This document shows, piece after piece, positions 3,087 to 32,162 of a stretch of 64,000 bases of DNA. The notes beneath the pieces are model-generated. The model saw only the letters and a program-made list of their open reading frames with translations. It searched no databases and was not told the origin of the DNA. This stretch comes from a virus, in IMG/VR virus record IMGVR_UViG_3300042515_001753, positions 62,001-126,000 of that record, one strand, 5' to 3'. The position numbers were made by a program, and so were the translations under genes. Position 1 is the stretch's first letter; each line of letters begins with the position of its first letter.

Positions 3087-3466
3087 TTTGTTCCTCCAGT
3101 TTCAAATTTCGATTTAATAAATGTTAGTTGTTCTTTTGTTAGAATCCTCAAAGCCTGCTGTGCCTTTTCATTACTATAACCATAATAACGTTTGACAATA
3201 TCAAGATCTTTGATTGTATCTTTACGAAGCCAAGGAGAATATCTCCTCTTAACTCTCAGAATATTTATAAGAAAGTCATATTGCATTTTTTTAGGAAGAA
3301 AATGATACTGATTCAATTCATTCACAAACATAATACAATCAATTTCTCCGGAAAGACACCGATTGATAATATATGGCGCATACCCCTTCTCAGTTGAAGG
3401 GTCTTCATCAATCAGGTTCTTCTTTGTTTGATTGATCGAGTTCAACCAGTCCTTTAGTTCAGGCAT
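3083..3466 (-). CDS. 62: Clamp loader small subunit gp62
   Basis: Small subunit that with gp44 loads the gp45 sliding clamp. At 127 residues it is shorter than T4 gp62 (187), as I expect for cyanophages. Features include LKDWLNSINQTKKNLI at the N-terminus, YAPYIINRCLSGEIDCIMFVNELN (the family signature) and a lysine-rich C-terminus. The chosen start is the ATG at 3466, with GGAGG about 9 bases upstream; the codon before it is TTG. It overlaps the dam stop on one side and regA by ATGA on the other. In T4, 62 directly follows 44; here dam and a 51-residue ORF lie between them. Confidence 0.9.
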   Translation of the reverse strand: MPELKDWLNSINQTKKNLIDEDPSTEKGYAPYIINRCLSGEIDCIMFVNELNQYHFLPKKMQYDFLINILRVKRRYSPWLRKDTIKDLDIVKRYYGYSNEKAQQALRILTKEQLTFIKSKFETGGTK

Positions 3467-4361
3467 CAACCAATCCCTCCTTCTTCAATCTATCATAATT
3501 ATAACACCCATCAAAACTAAATTGTATCTTAGGACCTTTAGTATAATTGAACAACAAAAGTTCCTTTCGTTGTTTTTGGTCTCTCATATACTCACCAACC
3601 GAACGCATAGTATAAGTTAAATCAAACTCTGTGGCATTCCAGTTCTTGAATCTATCCTTTATAAGTTGGTCTGAATTATAACTCACCAATTGGTCCATAT
3701 CATTAGCATCGCAATCAGCAGCAAACTTATCGTGATCAAATCCTTTGTGCATTGATCCTTTGCGCCCATAGAGATTATCCTTAATATCATAAGGAGGGTC
3801 AAGATACATAAACGCACCTTTGTTTCCATCCATCAAATAATCATATGAATAATTAGTTATACGCCATTTCTCAATCAGTTTACAGTATTCTGGCAGTTTT
3901 TCAATTCCACGAAGACTGAAGTTGGCATTGGATGCTTGAGGAGAGAAAGAAGAACTTTCTGTGAGACCACTGAAAGAACACTTATTAATAATATAAAAAT
4001 CAACCGCACGATCAAGATTTGAACGTCCTTCTTCGTGTAATTTATCCTTACAATAAAGAAATAGATCCCTTGCTAATTCTGGGTTATTGTTTGCTAATTT
4101 TATTCCTTTAAGATTATCTTTCAGATCTGTTCCAAACATCTGAAGTTGCTGCCAGAAGTTTACCAGAGGTTCATAAAGGTCATTCACCCAAATATCCAAG
4201 AGTGGATACTTCTTTGTGATGTGAATTGCAACACTCCCACCGCCAATAAATGGTTCCCGAAACTCATCATAATTTCGTAGGTCTGGAAAGAAAGGGTCCA
4301 TCTTGACACAAGCACGGGACTTGCCGCCAGGGTATCTTAAAGGGGTCTTAAGAGACTTCAT
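3459..4361 (-). CDS. dam: DNA adenine methylase (Dam, D12 class)
   Basis: SAM-dependent N6-adenine DNA methyltransferase, about 300 residues from the ATG at 4361. Seen: TPLRYPGGKS (residues 6-15), the SAM-binding FREPFIGGGSV (about 34-44), the catalytic DPPYD (188-192) and YGRKGSMHKGFDHDKF, which fits the substrate-recognition and adenine-binding region of Dam. The usual DPFxG is here EPFIG. An upstream in-frame reading to 4400 exists, but it lies inside the previous small ORF and has no ribosome site. Expected target GATC, by family. The gene interrupts the 44-62 clamp-loader pair and overlaps both neighbours, so it is embedded in the operon rather than loosely inserted. Confidence 0.93.
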   Translation of the reverse strand: MKSLKTPLRYPGGKSRACVKMDPFFPDLRNYDEFREPFIGGGSVAIHITKKYPLLDIWVNDLYEPLVNFWQQLQMFGTDLKDNLKGIKLANNNPELARDLFLYCKDKLHEEGRSNLDRAVDFYIINKCSFSGLTESSSFSPQASNANFSLRGIEKLPEYCKLIEKWRITNYSYDYLMDGNKGAFMYLDPPYDIKDNLYGRKGSMHKGFDHDKFAADCDANDMDQLVSYNSDQLIKDRFKNWNATEFDLTYTMRSVGEYMRDQKQRKELLLFNYTKGPKIQFSFDGCYNYDRLKKEGLVDA

Positions 4362-4503
4362 AAGTTTTAGGATGAAAATTACAATACTCATTAAATACAA
4401 TCTTACACTCCTTATGAGTAAGATTACAATGCTCTGCTGCCTTTGGAAGATTCCACTTAGCAGTAAAAAGCATTTCCATCGCTTCTCTTGTTTCAGGTCT
4501 CAT
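4348..4503 (-). CDS. 51-residue HTH-like protein between gp44 and dam
   Basis: Small ORF with tight linkage on both sides: its ATG at 4503 overlaps the gp44 stop (ATGA), and its end overlaps the dam start by 14 bases. The translation begins MRPETREAMEMLFTAKWN and has LPKAAEHCNLTHKECKIVFNEY, which reads as a helix-turn-helix-like segment (helix, turn at HCNLT, helix), ending in FHPKTYEVS. I recall similar small proteins after gp44 in other cyanophages, so it is probably a real conserved gene. A DNA-binding or clamp-loader accessory role is inference. Confidence 0.7.
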   Translation of the reverse strand: MRPETREAMEMLFTAKWNLPKAAEHCNLTHKECKIVFNEYCNFHPKTYEVS

Positions 4504-7669: not shown

Positions 7670-7698
7670 ATTATATCAGAAAGGAAGGTCAATGTCAA
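7670..7698 (-). promoter_or_regulatory. Consensus sigma-70 promoter for the gp45 operon
   Basis: TTGACA (7698-7693), a spacer of exactly 17 bases and TATAAT (7675-7670) on the minus strand. It overlaps the last codons of cobS and lies 16 bases upstream of the DUF3310 start. It needs no phage factor on paper and should fire early. Confidence 0.9.
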
Positions 7699-8821
7699 TC
7701 TCCCTACCACCCCCAATAGTCAGTTCAAGAGTTTCAGAAGGCATTACAAAATCAGCATCAATCTTATCATACAGTTCCAAGAAGGCAGTTTTGGTTTCAT
7801 CATCAAAACGATTGATACAAACCTGAATTGCCTTTGCCTTATCACCAAAGATGCTGTAGGCACGGACGATATGAACCAGTCGGCGGGTGGAGATGATTTC
7901 CTCAATACCACCATCATAGAAGGTCTTACGGATTACATCACCCCAATCTGCCAATCGCTTGCAGAAATCATCAATCTCGGTAAGACCCAGAGATGCTGCG
8001 ATGCCCTGAAGGATGCGAATCTCAGTAGCAGCAGCAGGATATGGTTGCTCAAAGGTCACGCAGAACCGCTCTAGGAACGCTTCGTTGAGCACGTTGGTGC
8101 CGATGAACCTACCGTCCTCAGAACCCTTTCCTTTGGTGTTTGCGGTGGCAATCACGTTGAATCCGGGAGCGGGTTTGACGAACCGTCCGATTTTTTTCAG
8201 GAAGACACCCTTACCTTCAAGAATAGATTGAAGGCACAGGATTTTATTGGAAGCAAGGTCAACCTCATCCAAAAGCAATACGGCACCACGCTCAAGTGCC
8301 TCAATCACGGGTCCGTTGTGCCAAGCAGTTTCACCATTCACAAGTCGGAAACCACCAATCAAATCATCCTCATCAGTCTCAATCGTAATATTCACACGAA
8401 TCAGTTCTCGCTTCAGTTGAGCACACGCTTGCTCCACACTGAACGTTTTACCATTACCCGAAAGACCCGTAATGAATGTAGGATAAAAAAGACGAGACTG
8501 AAGAATTTTTTTAACGTCAGCAAAACTACCAAACTTGACGAAGGTATCATCTTTATCGGGAATAAGGTTTTGGTGATGTTCGGGAAGAACTGCAACATTT
8601 TGGAAAGAACGCTCAATCTCTTCTACACGCTCTTGAGTCACTTCAAGGTTCCATTTGCCACGAGAAGTTTTGTATTGTGAGAGTTTATTACTTACGGTTT
8701 GGTAGTTGAGCGAACGAGAGGCACAGAAACCCCTGAGGTCGCCAGAAGTAATTTCAGTACCATAGAGTTCTTTGATTGCTTCAATTAGTTGGGCGTCATT
8801 CACGGCAGTTTTGCGGGACAT
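7676..8821 (-). CDS. cobS: CobS-type MoxR-family AAA+ ATPase
   Basis: 381 residues, known in cyanophages as cobS after the cobaltochelatase subunit. The N-terminal 60 residues look like a small helical DNA-binding-like domain (AIKELYGTEITSGDLRGFCA). The AAA+ core follows: Walker A GLSGNGKT (119-126), DDLIGGF and WHNGPV of MoxR/CobS type, Walker B LLLDEVD (182-188), sensor region NVIATANTKGKG, and an arginine-finger area EAFLERFCV. By family it would power a metal chelatase or a VWA-partner remodelling machine. The gene for a large VWA protein lies two genes upstream, which fits a CobS/CobT or MoxR/VWA pair. It has a TATAAT box after a terminator upstream, and no strong ribosome site. Confidence 0.9.
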   Translation of the reverse strand: MSRKTAVNDAQLIEAIKELYGTEITSGDLRGFCASRSLNYQTVSNKLSQYKTSRGKWNLEVTQERVEEIERSFQNVAVLPEHHQNLIPDKDDTFVKFGSFADVKKILQSRLFYPTFITGLSGNGKTFSVEQACAQLKRELIRVNITIETDEDDLIGGFRLVNGETAWHNGPVIEALERGAVLLLDEVDLASNKILCLQSILEGKGVFLKKIGRFVKPAPGFNVIATANTKGKGSEDGRFIGTNVLNEAFLERFCVTFEQPYPAAATEIRILQGIAASLGLTEIDDFCKRLADWGDVIRKTFYDGGIEEIISTRRLVHIVRAYSIFGDKAKAIQVCINRFDDETKTAFLELYDKIDADFVMPSETLELTIGGGREIDIDLPF

Positions 8822-8899: not shown

Positions 8900-9094
8900 T
8901 TAAGATTGGACCTGCTGGTTTCGCAGTTTATCTATGTACTCAAGACTCGCACAGTGACCCCTATAACCAGGATAATATTCATTCACCATAGCAGGAATAC
9001 CCATAGCAGTAATCGCACTGTCACACTTCACCCAAACTTCTTTGGTTTCGTGATTTACAACGTGTTCTAATCTCAATTTGTTAGTCTTCTTCAT
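8900..9094 (-). CDS. 64-residue hypothetical protein
   Basis: Short ORF beginning at the ATG at 9094, which lies 14 bases inside the end of the preceding capsid-targeted protein gene, so it is probably coupled. The translation reads MKKTNKLRLEHVVNHETKEV, then VWVKCDSAITAMGIPAMVNEY and YPGYRGHCASLEYIDKL. It has two cysteines and conserved-looking aromatic residues but no family that I recognise. A terminator follows 11 bases after its stop, which supports it as the last real gene of the unit. Confidence 0.6.
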   Translation of the reverse strand: MKKTNKLRLEHVVNHETKEVWVKCDSAITAMGIPAMVNEYYPGYRGHCASLEYIDKLRNQQVQS

Positions 9095-9641
9095 AAGTAA
9101 ATGTTTTGTTTTTGACTTTTGTATCAAACTCACCAGTTCTTCCTGGTTTCATTTTTCCAACTCCAACATTCTTACCTTTACCAGGCCAAGATGTTTTGGA
9201 TGTTCCTTTCAGTGTAGCAGATCCTCCTGGTTTGCGTTGAATCAGAACGGAGTCCTGATCATCCTTTGATGACCCTGATTTTACATTCTTTTTGTGCTTA
9301 AGTCCAGCCTCTGTGCCCAGTTTCTCAACTGTCCTCTTAAAGATTTTCTTACCCATTTTACCAGAAGAAACTACGTGAGATTTTTCACCCACTTTTTTCT
9401 CATCTGGAGTTCCTGGGTTTTCAGTATATCTTCCGGATACTTTTGTTGGACCTGGAAGACCGGCACCTCTAATTCTTCTTTCGGTTCTTGAAGACCTTGC
9501 TTTGTTTTCTGCTTTTGATTTGTCACCTCGCTGCCCAGAAAGAATTGCCATTCCACCCTTTTCAGACTTACTCATTACGCGAGTAAGAGAAGTCTCTTGG
9601 ATAGAATAGCATTCTACCATAAATTCCTGAAAGGTCTTCAT
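9081..9641 (-). CDS. Putative internal head protein with capsid-targeting N-terminus, DUF3293-like
   Basis: 186 residues, strongly basic. The start at 9641 gives MKTFQEFMVE, very close to the T4 capsid-targeting peptide MKTYQEFIAE, which sends internal proteins into the prohead and is then cut by the gp21 protease. The rest has AILSGQRGDKSKAENKARSS, a Gly/Pro-rich SGRYTENPG, then HVVSSGKMGKKIFKRTVEKLG and DSVLIQRKPGG, an order that recalls small DUF3293-type proteins. A late box of the CTAAATA type lies about 20 bases upstream. I infer a DNA-packed, possibly injected, internal protein. The domain match is tentative. Confidence 0.65.
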   Translation of the reverse strand: MKTFQEFMVECYSIQETSLTRVMSKSEKGGMAILSGQRGDKSKAENKARSSRTERRIRGAGLPGPTKVSGRYTENPGTPDEKKVGEKSHVVSSGKMGKKIFKRTVEKLGTEAGLKHKKNVKSGSSKDDQDSVLIQRKPGGSATLKGTSKTSWPGKGKNVGVGKMKPGRTGEFDTKVKNKTFTYEED

Positions 9642-9661: not shown

Positions 9662-9669
9662 TATTTAGT
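9662..9669 (-). promoter_or_regulatory. Late-promoter variant (ACTAAATA)
   Basis: ACTAAATA on the minus strand, placed just after the VWA gene and 20 bases before the start of the capsid-targeted protein. The same variant precedes gp20. Confidence 0.5.
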
Positions 9670-11840
9670 TAAGCAACCAATTCAATAAACTCACCAAGAA
9701 TCTTCTTATTCATTTTTTTAGAACTCAAAGACTTGACAAAAGCAGATTTAATTTGTGCCTTTGAGGCATCTTCGGCAACCTTGAACTCACTATCACTATT
9801 GAGAGCAGAGGAAGAAATACCAAAGTAAGTATGATAACCAGAAGTAGTAAGGGCAAAACTGCGCTCTTTCTTCCAGCGTGTCATTACTTTGTGATATTCA
9901 TCTCCAATATATCCGGTATAATTCCGAATAAAATGCCCGGCATCACGACTATCAAGAATACGCATTCCAATAAAATTCACGCTGGGAAACTTGTCACGGA
10001 GATTTCTGAGAAGAAGGTCCGTAAAAGATGTATTGTTATTCCAAGTATTTTCAGAAAACTTATAAACATTTCCAGTCTTACGGTCACGAAGGTAGGAATT
10101 ATCTTGAATGTAATGAGTTCCTAGAAAACTTTCCTTTTCCCAGTGTCGTTTGATTTCCCGATAATACTTCAGAGGAGCTGCTTCACCATCAGTCAGAATT
10201 ACACACTGGACTTTCTGAAGTTTATGTTCTTTCTGAAAATGTGGAAGAATTTGATGTAAGGCAACAAGTGACTCATTCAGTGGAGTTCCGGAAAGAGTTA
10301 GTTTATGGGGAGCAGAATACTTACAATTACCATAATTGGAGCGGTCATACTGTTTGGCAACCCGATAGATATTCTTGAGTTGAGTATCAAGAACCGAACT
10401 TTTTACCTTGCTGGTAAATAGGTTCAGAAGACCAAATGTATAATCAACCACGAGTTCATTCTCTTTACGAACGGTATGTTCTTTAGGAGTGATTACTTTA
10501 CCATCGGCATCATATGAAGACCTATAGTTCCAATCATTTGTAAAGGCATAAACCTCAAAAGGAATATTAACCTTATTGCAGAACCAAATAAGATTATAAA
10601 GTTGCTTGACAGTATCCATAAGAACGCTACTCATAGACCCAGACCAGTCCAGAATAAAAACCAGACCGTGATTTTTACCGGTGGCAAATGTGGTTACTTT
10701 CTTGAACAAATCCTCCTGATACTTATAGGTATGAAGTTTCGTACAGTCCAGAACACCAGTCTTAGAAACTGATGCACGGGCATAGGAGTCTGCTGCCTTA
10801 CGACACTCAAACTCTTTCACTAGATAATTGACTTCCTTTTGTGCCGAACGCTTGAAATCTACATAATCGGCATCTACTGCGGTAAAGATTCCACTATCTT
10901 CGTGAATATAGATTTGATTATTCCAAGTTTCTTTACAATAATCGTGAATAATTTGATTAGAAATAATCGCAGAATCTAGATTCAATTTAGGAACTTCAAT
11001 ATAATTAGTTTCTTGAATGTTGTTATTCACTAGTTCCTTAAGGTTTTCCTCAAGAGAACTCATAGTCTTCACCTCCGGTTCAGAGTGTTCCCCACCAGTT
11101 TGTTGAGTATTTTGGTCCTCAAATTTTTCACCTTGAGTTTGTTGTTCAGACCCAGAGGTTTGTTGCTTATCGCCATCACCTTCACCATCCTCTTCGGGAG
11201 AAAGTTCTTGCTGTTCTTCAGATTGGTCTCCCGCACCAGAACCAGAAGACTTTTCGTGATTATCAAGACTGGGGAGTTTGGTAGGTTCTTCTTGCTTTTG
11301 CTTACAGTAATCATAAAGAACCTTGGCAGCATCCAGAGTTTCATCAAAGGTTTCTGCCTTACCAATCATATCAACAATTTCTTGCTCCTTATTGGTAAAT
11401 TCAAGAGTCAAGAAATTACCAACCTTGAAGTAAAGATTTGCACGGTCGGCAAGATTATGTGTTGAAAGGTCATCATCACCAATCTGAAAGAAATCTTCTT
11501 CCTGAAGTTCCCGATAGGCACCATAGAAGGTCTTTGCCAATCCGGCATAACGGCGTTTGATGAGTTTCTCTACACGAGCATCCTCACATACATTCACAAA
11601 CTGCTGAGGAACCTGAACTTGCTCACTCCAGTCCTCATCAGGCGTATAAAGTGAATGGGATACCTCGTGGGCAACCAACATATCATAGACACAATTACTT
11701 GCCTTCTGCCACATAGGAAGCGTCAGAACCCGTGTATGAACATTAAAGCAGGCAGTCTCAACCTTCTTGTGTTCCACAATCAGGTCTTCCGTTGCCAGAA
11801 GACGGGCGAGCATACCTTTTACTTCAAAATTTACGGTCAT
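9669..11840 (-). CDS. Large HExxH and VWA-domain protein (CobT-like partner of CobS)
   Basis: 723 residues, often annotated as a peptidase in cyanophages. Three parts are visible. Residues 1-190 hold an HEVSH zincin motif (58-62) followed by VNVCEDARVEKLIKRRY. Residues about 195-270 form an acidic, low-complexity linker rich in Glu, Gln, Ser and Gly. The rest has a VWA domain with MIDAS DWSGSM near residue 400, GTPLNES and ILTDGEA. This is the layout of CobT-like chelatase subunits and of VWA proteins paired with MoxR ATPases. CobS, encoded two genes downstream, is the likely partner. It is preceded by a terminator and a TATAAT box. Confidence 0.88.
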   Translation of the reverse strand: MTVNFEVKGMLARLLATEDLIVEHKKVETACFNVHTRVLTLPMWQKASNCVYDMLVAHEVSHSLYTPDEDWSEQVQVPQQFVNVCEDARVEKLIKRRYAGLAKTFYGAYRELQEEDFFQIGDDDLSTHNLADRANLYFKVGNFLTLEFTNKEQEIVDMIGKAETFDETLDAAKVLYDYCKQKQEEPTKLPSLDNHEKSSGSGAGDQSEEQQELSPEEDGEGDGDKQQTSGSEQQTQGEKFEDQNTQQTGGEHSEPEVKTMSSLEENLKELVNNNIQETNYIEVPKLNLDSAIISNQIIHDYCKETWNNQIYIHEDSGIFTAVDADYVDFKRSAQKEVNYLVKEFECRKAADSYARASVSKTGVLDCTKLHTYKYQEDLFKKVTTFATGKNHGLVFILDWSGSMSSVLMDTVKQLYNLIWFCNKVNIPFEVYAFTNDWNYRSSYDADGKVITPKEHTVRKENELVVDYTFGLLNLFTSKVKSSVLDTQLKNIYRVAKQYDRSNYGNCKYSAPHKLTLSGTPLNESLVALHQILPHFQKEHKLQKVQCVILTDGEAAPLKYYREIKRHWEKESFLGTHYIQDNSYLRDRKTGNVYKFSENTWNNNTSFTDLLLRNLRDKFPSVNFIGMRILDSRDAGHFIRNYTGYIGDEYHKVMTRWKKERSFALTTSGYHTYFGISSSALNSDSEFKVAEDASKAQIKSAFVKSLSSKKMNKKILGEFIELVA

Positions 11841-21942: not shown

Positions 21943-22593
21943 TTAAAGATTTCCTAAGAAATCTTGGAACAATTGAACCTTATGCTCCTGAAGAGTTTTT
22001 TCATCTACAAGAGTATTAATTCTGCTTTTTGTTTGTTCTGCGAGTCTTTCACGAAGAATACCTCCTTCCCAAACCCACTCCTTACCTTCCATAATTCCCT
22101 GAACAAAAGCGTCGGGAGCAGAAGGATCGGCAACAATATCAGCAGCAGTTGCGAGCATAAAATCTTCACCAACAATTTTATGACCTTCATTAGTTAGTTT
22201 AAGTGAACCGACACCACGAGAAGAAACACCCAGGCAAACGCCTTCACCGATAAGAGATTTTGCAATCTTACCCATAGGAGTTTCAAGAAGTTGTGCCTTA
22301 CCAATAAAATTGCATCCTTTTTGTTCTAAGGAAACAATTTTATGAGAAACACGGTCAAGATTGACGGTAGGTCCATCGGGATGACCAAGTTCTCCAAGAG
22401 CACGACCCTTTGCAACGAAAGATTCATTATATCTCGCTACCTCACGGGCAAGAGTTTGCATAGGATACATTCTACCATTACGGTTACAAATGTCACCTTG
22501 AAGGAAAACTCCCTCAATATACATTTTCTTTTCAGCACCTTTACCTTCGGTGATAAACTTAACTTGTGAGACTTCTTCTGTGATGAGTTTCAT
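21943..22593 (-). CDS. 21: Prohead maturation protease gp21
   Basis: Serine protease of the herpesvirus-assemblin type that trims head and internal proteins after I/L-x-E. It has 216 residues (T4 has 212). The N-terminus KMYIEGVFLQGDICNRNGRMYP is typical. Catalytic His is in GELGHPDGP (H71) and Ser in LGVSSRGVGS (124-125). It follows the 175-residue protein with a 2-base gap and precedes gp22. Proteins in this window with capsid-targeting starts (9081-9641, 31848-32162) are likely substrates. Confidence 0.96.
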   Translation of the reverse strand: MKLITEEVSQVKFITEGKGAEKKMYIEGVFLQGDICNRNGRMYPMQTLAREVARYNESFVAKGRALGELGHPDGPTVNLDRVSHKIVSLEQKGCNFIGKAQLLETPMGKIAKSLIGEGVCLGVSSRGVGSLKLTNEGHKIVGEDFMLATAADIVADPSAPDAFVQGIMEGKEWVWEGGILRERLAEQTKSRINTLVDEKTLQEHKVQLFQDFLGNL

Positions 22594-31847: not shown

Positions 31848-32162
31848 TTAATCAGTCCAAGTTAGTCTTTCTGGTTGATATCTTTGTGAGTTCTTAATTT
31901 TTAAAGAATTTGTTGTTTGGGGGTAAATGTTATGTACAATTGCTCCAGGATATTCTCCCTGAAGTTGCTCCGCAAGTTCATTTTTGTTCAACATCTTGCC
32001 TTCAACTTCTAATCTATACATTTTACCTTCCCAAACTATATCTGCGGTAAAAGACTCTCCAACGGGTTCTGATTGAGATTCTGAACCATTCATATAAAGA
32101 TTGCCGTTGAAATTTCCAGCAATATTAACACTTTCTGAAATAAACTGATTGAAGGATTTCAT
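31848..32162 (-). CDS. Small protein with capsid-targeting N-terminus
   Basis: 104 residues. It starts MKSFNQFISESVNIAG, close to the T4 capsid-targeting peptide MKTYQEFIAEA, including an I-x-E followed by a small residue where gp21 would cut (after E9). The mature part would be small and beta-like: FNGNLYMNGSESQSEPVG, FTADIVWEGKMYRLEVEG and LNKNELAEQLQGEYPGAIVHNI. I know no function. One base separates it from the DUF5661-type gene upstream and two from the 665-residue gene downstream. I infer a packaged internal head protein. Confidence 0.7.
   Translation of the reverse strand: MKSFNQFISESVNIAGNFNGNLYMNGSESQSEPVGESFTADIVWEGKMYRLEVEGKMLNKNELAEQLQGEYPGAIVHNIYPQTTNSLKIKNSQRYQPERLTWTD

Follow-up and report, generated by a model that had tools for sequence, protein, structure and literature searches.

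The locus and its genomic setting

The stretch of DNA analysed here (the window, 64,000 nucleotides) covers bases 62001-126000 of a viral record of 233,886 bases, which belongs to a marine-type, T4-like cyanophage near Synechococcus phages S-SRM01 and S-SKS1. The gene under study is flanked on one side by a large CobT/peptidase-like gene and on the other by a CobS/MoxR-type AAA gene (Table 1). It is preceded by a late-promoter-like box, and its product combines a T4-like capsid-targeting sequence (CTS), a predicted prohead-protease site and a domain of the S-adenosylmethionine (SAM) lyase family. The protein is strongly basic, with a computed pI of 10.08 and 41 lysines and arginines against 21 aspartates and glutamates. 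A preliminary description made from the DNA alone had placed the open reading frame correctly in strand, start and length, and had rightly called its cargo very basic. Relatives of the gene occur in at least 533 IMG/VR stretches; the scan returned 283 to 533 relatives for each of the three main queries and 30 for the P-SSM2 type. No cellular homologue was confirmed among the genome contigs searched, and neither PADLOC nor NCBIfam gave a match for the SAM lyase.

Table 1. Features of the CTS-SAM lyase gene and of related genes; positions are those of the window unless a contig or locus is named.
Feature	Position	Strand	Remarks
CTS-SAM lyase gene	9081..9641	-	186 aa; ATG at 9641, stop at 9081; relatives share the start residue
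Capsid-targeting peptide MKTFQEFMVE	9612..9641	-	Codons 1-10; from conservation in relatives, S-CREM2 virion proteins and shuffle control
CYSIQE, ending in predicted site IQE/TSL	9594..9611	-	Codons 11-16; putative cut after E16, between 9594 and 9593
SAM lyase domain, Pfam PF23780	9090..9545	-	Residues 33-184; from Pfam and AlphaFold/Foldseek
G70	9432..9434	-	Aligned with T3 G55 and Svi3-3 G56; packs on ribose (PMC7877911)
Y72	9426..9428	-	Aligned with T3 Y57 and Svi3-3 Y58 (PMC7877911)
E86	9384..9386	-	Aligned with T3 E68 and Svi3-3 E69; essential glutamate (PMC7877911)
Q129	9255..9257	-	Aligned with T3 Q94 and Svi3-3 Q104 (PMC7877911)
TAAATA late-promoter-like box	9662..9667	-	Starts 26 nt before the ATG
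Large CobT/peptidase-like gene	9669-11840		One flank of the CTS-SAM lyase gene
CobS/MoxR-type AAA gene	7676-8821		Other flank
Likely prohead protease gp21	21943..22593	-	Beside scaffold and capsid genes; proposed processing enzyme
Second CTS-headed ORF	31848..32162	-	104 aa, MKSFNQFISESV; phrog_1742 (unknown function)
CTS-headed NMNAT/cytidylyltransferase-like gene	G000:52506-53825	-	Same genome, outside the window; 439 aa, MKSFFQFISEAT
Small basic CTS-headed protein, P-SSM2	L004:8507-8764		Directly downstream of the SAM lyase gene

The late-promoter-like box is shared by much of the family: of 200 distinct regions preceding the genes of relatives, 138 have TAAATA in the expected interval, compared with about 3 for random places in the same loci. 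In cyanophage S-CREM2, 29 of the 52 genes for virion proteins have an [AC]TAAATA box upstream, against only 23 of the 167 others (p=5e-9). The motif is imperfectly specific within the window, where uvsW and an Hfq/Sm-like gene have the box and gp23 does not. The T4 late promoter is TATAAATA. Since the box resembles it, the CTS-SAM lyase gene looks late, unlike the T3 SAMase gene, with sequence serving as a proxy for expression.

The window also holds a gene for a Dam-like DNA adenine methylase (3459-4400, minus strand), itself a SAM-dependent enzyme. S-CREM2 has such a methylase too, and in both S-CREM2 and S-H34 the methylase gene is near the SAM lyase gene.

The targeting peptide and the predicted cleavage site

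The capsid-targeting sequence of T4 is MKTYQEFIAE, with which the first ten residues of the window protein agree at seven positions. Among the 205 distinct relatives of full length, 178 have a CTS-like start, in which K2, T3, F4 or Y4, F7 and E10 are conserved despite synonymous codon drift. The canonical peptide is absent from the other 27, among which the SSL/TSL-type sequences retain an [IL]xE site; the different N-termini of this minority (MKHAKD..., MLQRREY...) still keep the cleavage glutamate.

Downstream of the peptide, E16 is invariant in an alignment-column count over 206 distinct sequences (206/206), even though the spacer between the CTS and the site ranges in length between 0 and about 9 residues. 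The large majority of sequences have I, L, M, V or F two positions before this glutamate, and the pattern hydrophobic-x-E/[ST]SL occurs in 187 of 205 relatives. Family members come in a short form, MKTYKEFMQE/SSL, in which the site follows residue 10 with the spacing of the T4 CTS, and in a longer form, MKTFQEFMVECYSIQE/TSL, to which the window protein belongs. The conserved glutamate is thus most likely part of a T4-type prohead-protease site, and the predicted cut would be made by the product of a gene elsewhere in the window that we take, from its sequence and position, to be gp21.

The cargo domain

Pfam gave a single match for the window protein, to S-AdoMet_lyase (PF23780), with E=3.3e-6 and 27.5 bits, 0.5 bit under the cut-off of 28. 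The same family matches 15 of 15 aligned members (best 7e-23), and relatives score above the cut-off at 32.6-81.5 bits. The preliminary description had called the cargo DUF3293-like. This resemblance is real but secondary: PF11697 matches 5 of the 15 members weakly (best 9.2e-5, those seen singly below the cut-off) and has no match to the window protein itself in the Pfam search, so DUF3293 was dropped as the family name in favour of SAM lyase.

An AlphaFold model built with 48 family sequences (pLDDT 71.5, moderate confidence; pTM 0.66) was compared with the PDB by Foldseek. The top match is the T3 SAM lyase (8bb1; E=1.9e-4, probability 1.00), the second and third are Svi3-3 (6zm9, 6znb), a further T3 SAM lyase structure (7ock) follows them, and all of matches 1-7 are one or the other enzyme. 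Searching PDB chains by sequence, with either the protein or its profile as query, gave no match, and fold comparison alone recovered these relatives. Likewise, hhalign of the single sequence with T3 aligned 20 columns only, while a profile of five T3-type enzymes aligned over the whole domain and paired G70, Y72, E86 and Q129 with T3 G55, Y57, E68 and Q94. By the same column count, none of these four residues varies among the 206 distinct sequences, even where identity falls to about 30%. Their Svi3-3 counterparts bind SAM, and replacing the glutamate (T3 E68Q, Svi3-3 E69Q) abolishes in vivo rescue activity (PMC7877911). By modelled fold and ligand residues, then, the cargo is a SAM lyase of the T3 SAMase/Svi3-3 family, with the activity predicted from this relationship. 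The earlier suggestion of an anti-defence effector gains from this assignment, as SAM lyase is a recognised anti-restriction enzyme.

Both phrog_2226 and the record of T3 gene 0.3 (NC_003298) carry the label 'SAM-dependent methyltransferase', although T3 gene 0.3 encodes a SAM lyase. This is apparently a misannotation, and one that is spreading to other phage records.

Virion presence of the orthologue and of CTS-headed proteins

In S-CREM2 the orthologue is gp6, which matches the full length of the window protein at 42.6% identity. Mass spectrometry of virions purified on CsCl detected gp6 through 19 unique peptides, with a coverage of 26.3% (PMC10665884, Table 3), so that packaging of the window protein is, by analogy, well supported. 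The authors of that study proposed that the encapsidated SAM hydrolase protects entering DNA from restriction, and cautioned that CsCl-purified virions may hold abundant contaminants (PMC10665884).

To relate the peptide to virion presence, the N-termini of the 219 translated S-CREM2 genes were compared between the 52 virion proteins and the 167 others. The strict motif, MKx[FYLI]xxF[ILMVF]xE, heads gp6, gp13, gp14 (kinase-like) and gp154 (cytidylyltransferase); all four are virion proteins, and the motif is found in 0 of the 167 undetected proteins (p=0.003). It occurs at these 4 gene starts and nowhere internally in 52,383 residues, and shuffled N-termini give an expectation of 0.004 matches. 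A looser, post hoc test adds gp12 and gp136, both in the virion (6/6, p=1.4e-4); gp12 was counted only here because its CTS-like stretch begins at residue 17, at a CTG codon. In S-CREM2, CTS N-termini predict presence in the virion. Gp12 (L002:2769-5378) is annotated as Cas9/Csn1; Pfam gives no support to this label, and the sole match is to phrog_3561, of unknown function.

S-SCSM1 served as the second mass-spectrometry test, as the RefSeq names of S-SM1 no longer mark the detected proteins. Here the strict motif stands at two gene starts, one of which is flagged as virion (gp91, NMNAT) and one not (gp30). The latter, of 106 residues (MKTFKQFMSESV), is encoded between two flagged genes and is the orthologue of the second CTS-headed protein of the window; the exception is genuine, and mass spectrometry may have overlooked so small a protein.

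The same peptide on other cargo

The second CTS-headed protein of the window was found in 135 cyanophage records. A third, in the same genome but outside the window, is the NMNAT-like MKSFFQFISEAT protein, whose relatives have been detected in virions of S-CREM2 (PMC10665884), S-SM1 (PMC3037559), S-SCSM1 and S-CBWM1 (PMC9602691). A short region that follows its CTS, RVGLQGDGHGGWYDRRTNEFVAKTEGGKLKFY, recurs in the S-CREM2 virion proteins gp12 and gp14. Near the SAM lyase gene of another virus, an open reading frame (L041:1006-1455) joins MKTFQEFIAEA to an ADP-ribosyltransferase-like sequence (YHGTS...GF...) with a weak PF18760 match and a TAAATA box 24 nt upstream; its product is a candidate second injected enzyme, to be compared with T4 Alt. 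In P-SSM2-type loci (L265, L266, L271, L272, L275), a small basic CTS-headed protein starts where the SAM lyase gene ends, and the two CTS proteins therefore appear to form one unit.

These cases suggest that T4-group cyanophages load unrelated enzymes into the head by means of one interchangeable N-terminal peptide, delivering at DNA entry a metabolic and counter-defence kit that the peptide by itself would make recognisable in genome sequences, a generalisation to which we give an even chance. The proposed members of the kit are the SAM lyase, the NMNAT-like nucleotidyltransferase, an APH/protein kinase-like protein, the ADP-ribosyltransferase-like protein and the small basic proteins.

Proposed mechanism and alternatives

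The best explanation of the gene, with a probability of roughly 0.7, is that it encodes a CTS-loaded SAM lyase that is injected and acts at DNA entry against SAM-dependent restriction. We infer the cleavage, the injection, the enzyme activity and the identity of the targeted defence, and the steps would run as follows. The gene would be transcribed late, and the MKTFQEF N-terminus would carry the product into the prohead core, where the prohead protease most likely cuts after Glu16. The mature basic enzyme (predicted pI 10.3) would stay bound to packaged DNA and enter the next cell together with it. There it would split SAM into methylthioadenosine and homoserine lactone, and the loss of SAM would starve SAM-dependent restriction (enzymes of type I and some of type III, and BREX-like methylases) during the minutes that precede phage gene expression. 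Because internal proteins arrive with the DNA, SAM could drop ahead of any action by host type I or BREX enzymes; a SAM lyase expressed early after entry could not lower SAM as fast as an injected one.

This agrees with the preliminary description, which had seen a basic anti-defence effector targeted to the head by a T4-like peptide. The resemblance of the peptide to the T4 signal is borne out by its identity, its conservation among relatives and the S-CREM2 control, and the orthologue has been found in purified virions, where the description had proposed to look. The whole reading draws on this orthologue, on the association of the CTS with virion proteins, on the identification of the SAM lyase, on the invariant E16 and on the late-type box. 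Against it stand the contaminants that CsCl-purified virions may hold, the unflagged gp30 of S-SCSM1, the 27 relatives without the canonical CTS, a Pfam score for the window protein just under the cut-off, and the Dam-like methylase of the same phage, whose own need for SAM the reading does not explain.

Four alternatives were weighed. Of these, the one that survives best, while still unlikely, is that the SAM lyase is made late and acts in the same cell, for instance by blocking methylation or host use of SAM, with its virion presence due to carry-over and MKTFQEF an unrelated helix. The T3 SAMase does work inside the infected cell without packaging, and carry-over was raised by the S-CREM2 authors themselves (PMC10665884). 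However, the CTS motif in S-CREM2 is found only on virion-detected proteins, unrelated cargo is headed by the same peptide, and T3-type SAM lyases are encoded by the first early gene and have no peptide, whereas a late-type box lies upstream here.

Somewhat less probable is a basic internal head protein for scaffolding or DNA condensation in which the SAM lyase fold is structural only. A pI of 10.1 and many lysines would suit such a role, as in the charge-balancing internal proteins of T4, but the four ligand residues are invariant to about 30% identity, which argues against a structural relic, as this should lose them. The proposal that the substrate is SAM-AMP, a signal of type III CRISPR systems, rather than SAM, as for the phage enzyme AcrIIIB4, is improbable. 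SAM-AMP lyases have this fold together with its Glu/Gln pair, and one is known from a phage (PMC12255297); yet the T-loop cysteine (C66) and tryptophan (W64) are absent from residues 73-86 of the window protein, TENPGTPDEKKVGE (PMC12255297), which makes SAM the likelier substrate, and the Gly and Tyr align with those of the SAM enzymes T3 and Svi3-3. Chance resemblance to the CTS, conceivable for a peptide of only ten residues, is very improbable and was rejected because the peptide persists in 178 of 205 relatives through synonymous drift and the S-CREM2 shuffle control expects 0.004 matches where 4 are seen.

An injected SAM lyase of this kind would, if the preferred reading is true, be a broad counter-defence: before any phage gene is expressed, it would remove a cofactor on which many restriction and methylation systems jointly depend. 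The internal proteins so far known from T4 inhibit a single family of nucleases. The targeting peptide also offers a reason for the repeated, unexplained presence of metabolic enzymes in cyanophage virions, and for viruses that are very abundant in the ocean it allows virion cargo to be predicted from sequence.

Comparison with known systems

SAM lyases, the CTS-bearing internal proteins of T4 and the S-CREM2 virion enzyme are already known. In the literature searched, no paper was found that connects these three, describes a signal and site running through the whole family, or notes that cargoes of different kinds share the peptide. Other anti-restriction proteins carried in the head, phage P1 DarA/Hdf among them, have a similar function, with unrelated proteins and targeting. 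To our knowledge, the T4 internal proteins have no sequence similarity to the window protein outside the peptide.

Like the window protein, T4 Ip1-Ip3, which are CTS-targeted and injected, are small and basic, begin with MKT[FY]xEF and have a proposed anti-restriction role; they differ in being protein inhibitors of GmrSD type IV nucleases, whereas the window protein is predicted to be an enzyme that removes a cofactor (PMC3012670, PMC12373910). S-CREM2 gp6, annotated as 'SAM hydrolase (virion protein)', shares with it a CTS-like start (MKDFDSFLEE) and the invariant residues, and differs by additional sequence at its C-terminus (414 aa); the study that describes gp6 does not mention a targeting peptide, a cleavage site, a late promoter or a family for it (PMC10665884). 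The T3 SAM lyase (gene 0.3) and Svi3-3 have in common with the window protein the fold and the four ligand residues. The T3 enzyme lacks a targeting peptide and comes from the gene that is expressed first after entry, whereas the window protein appears to be made late and packaged.
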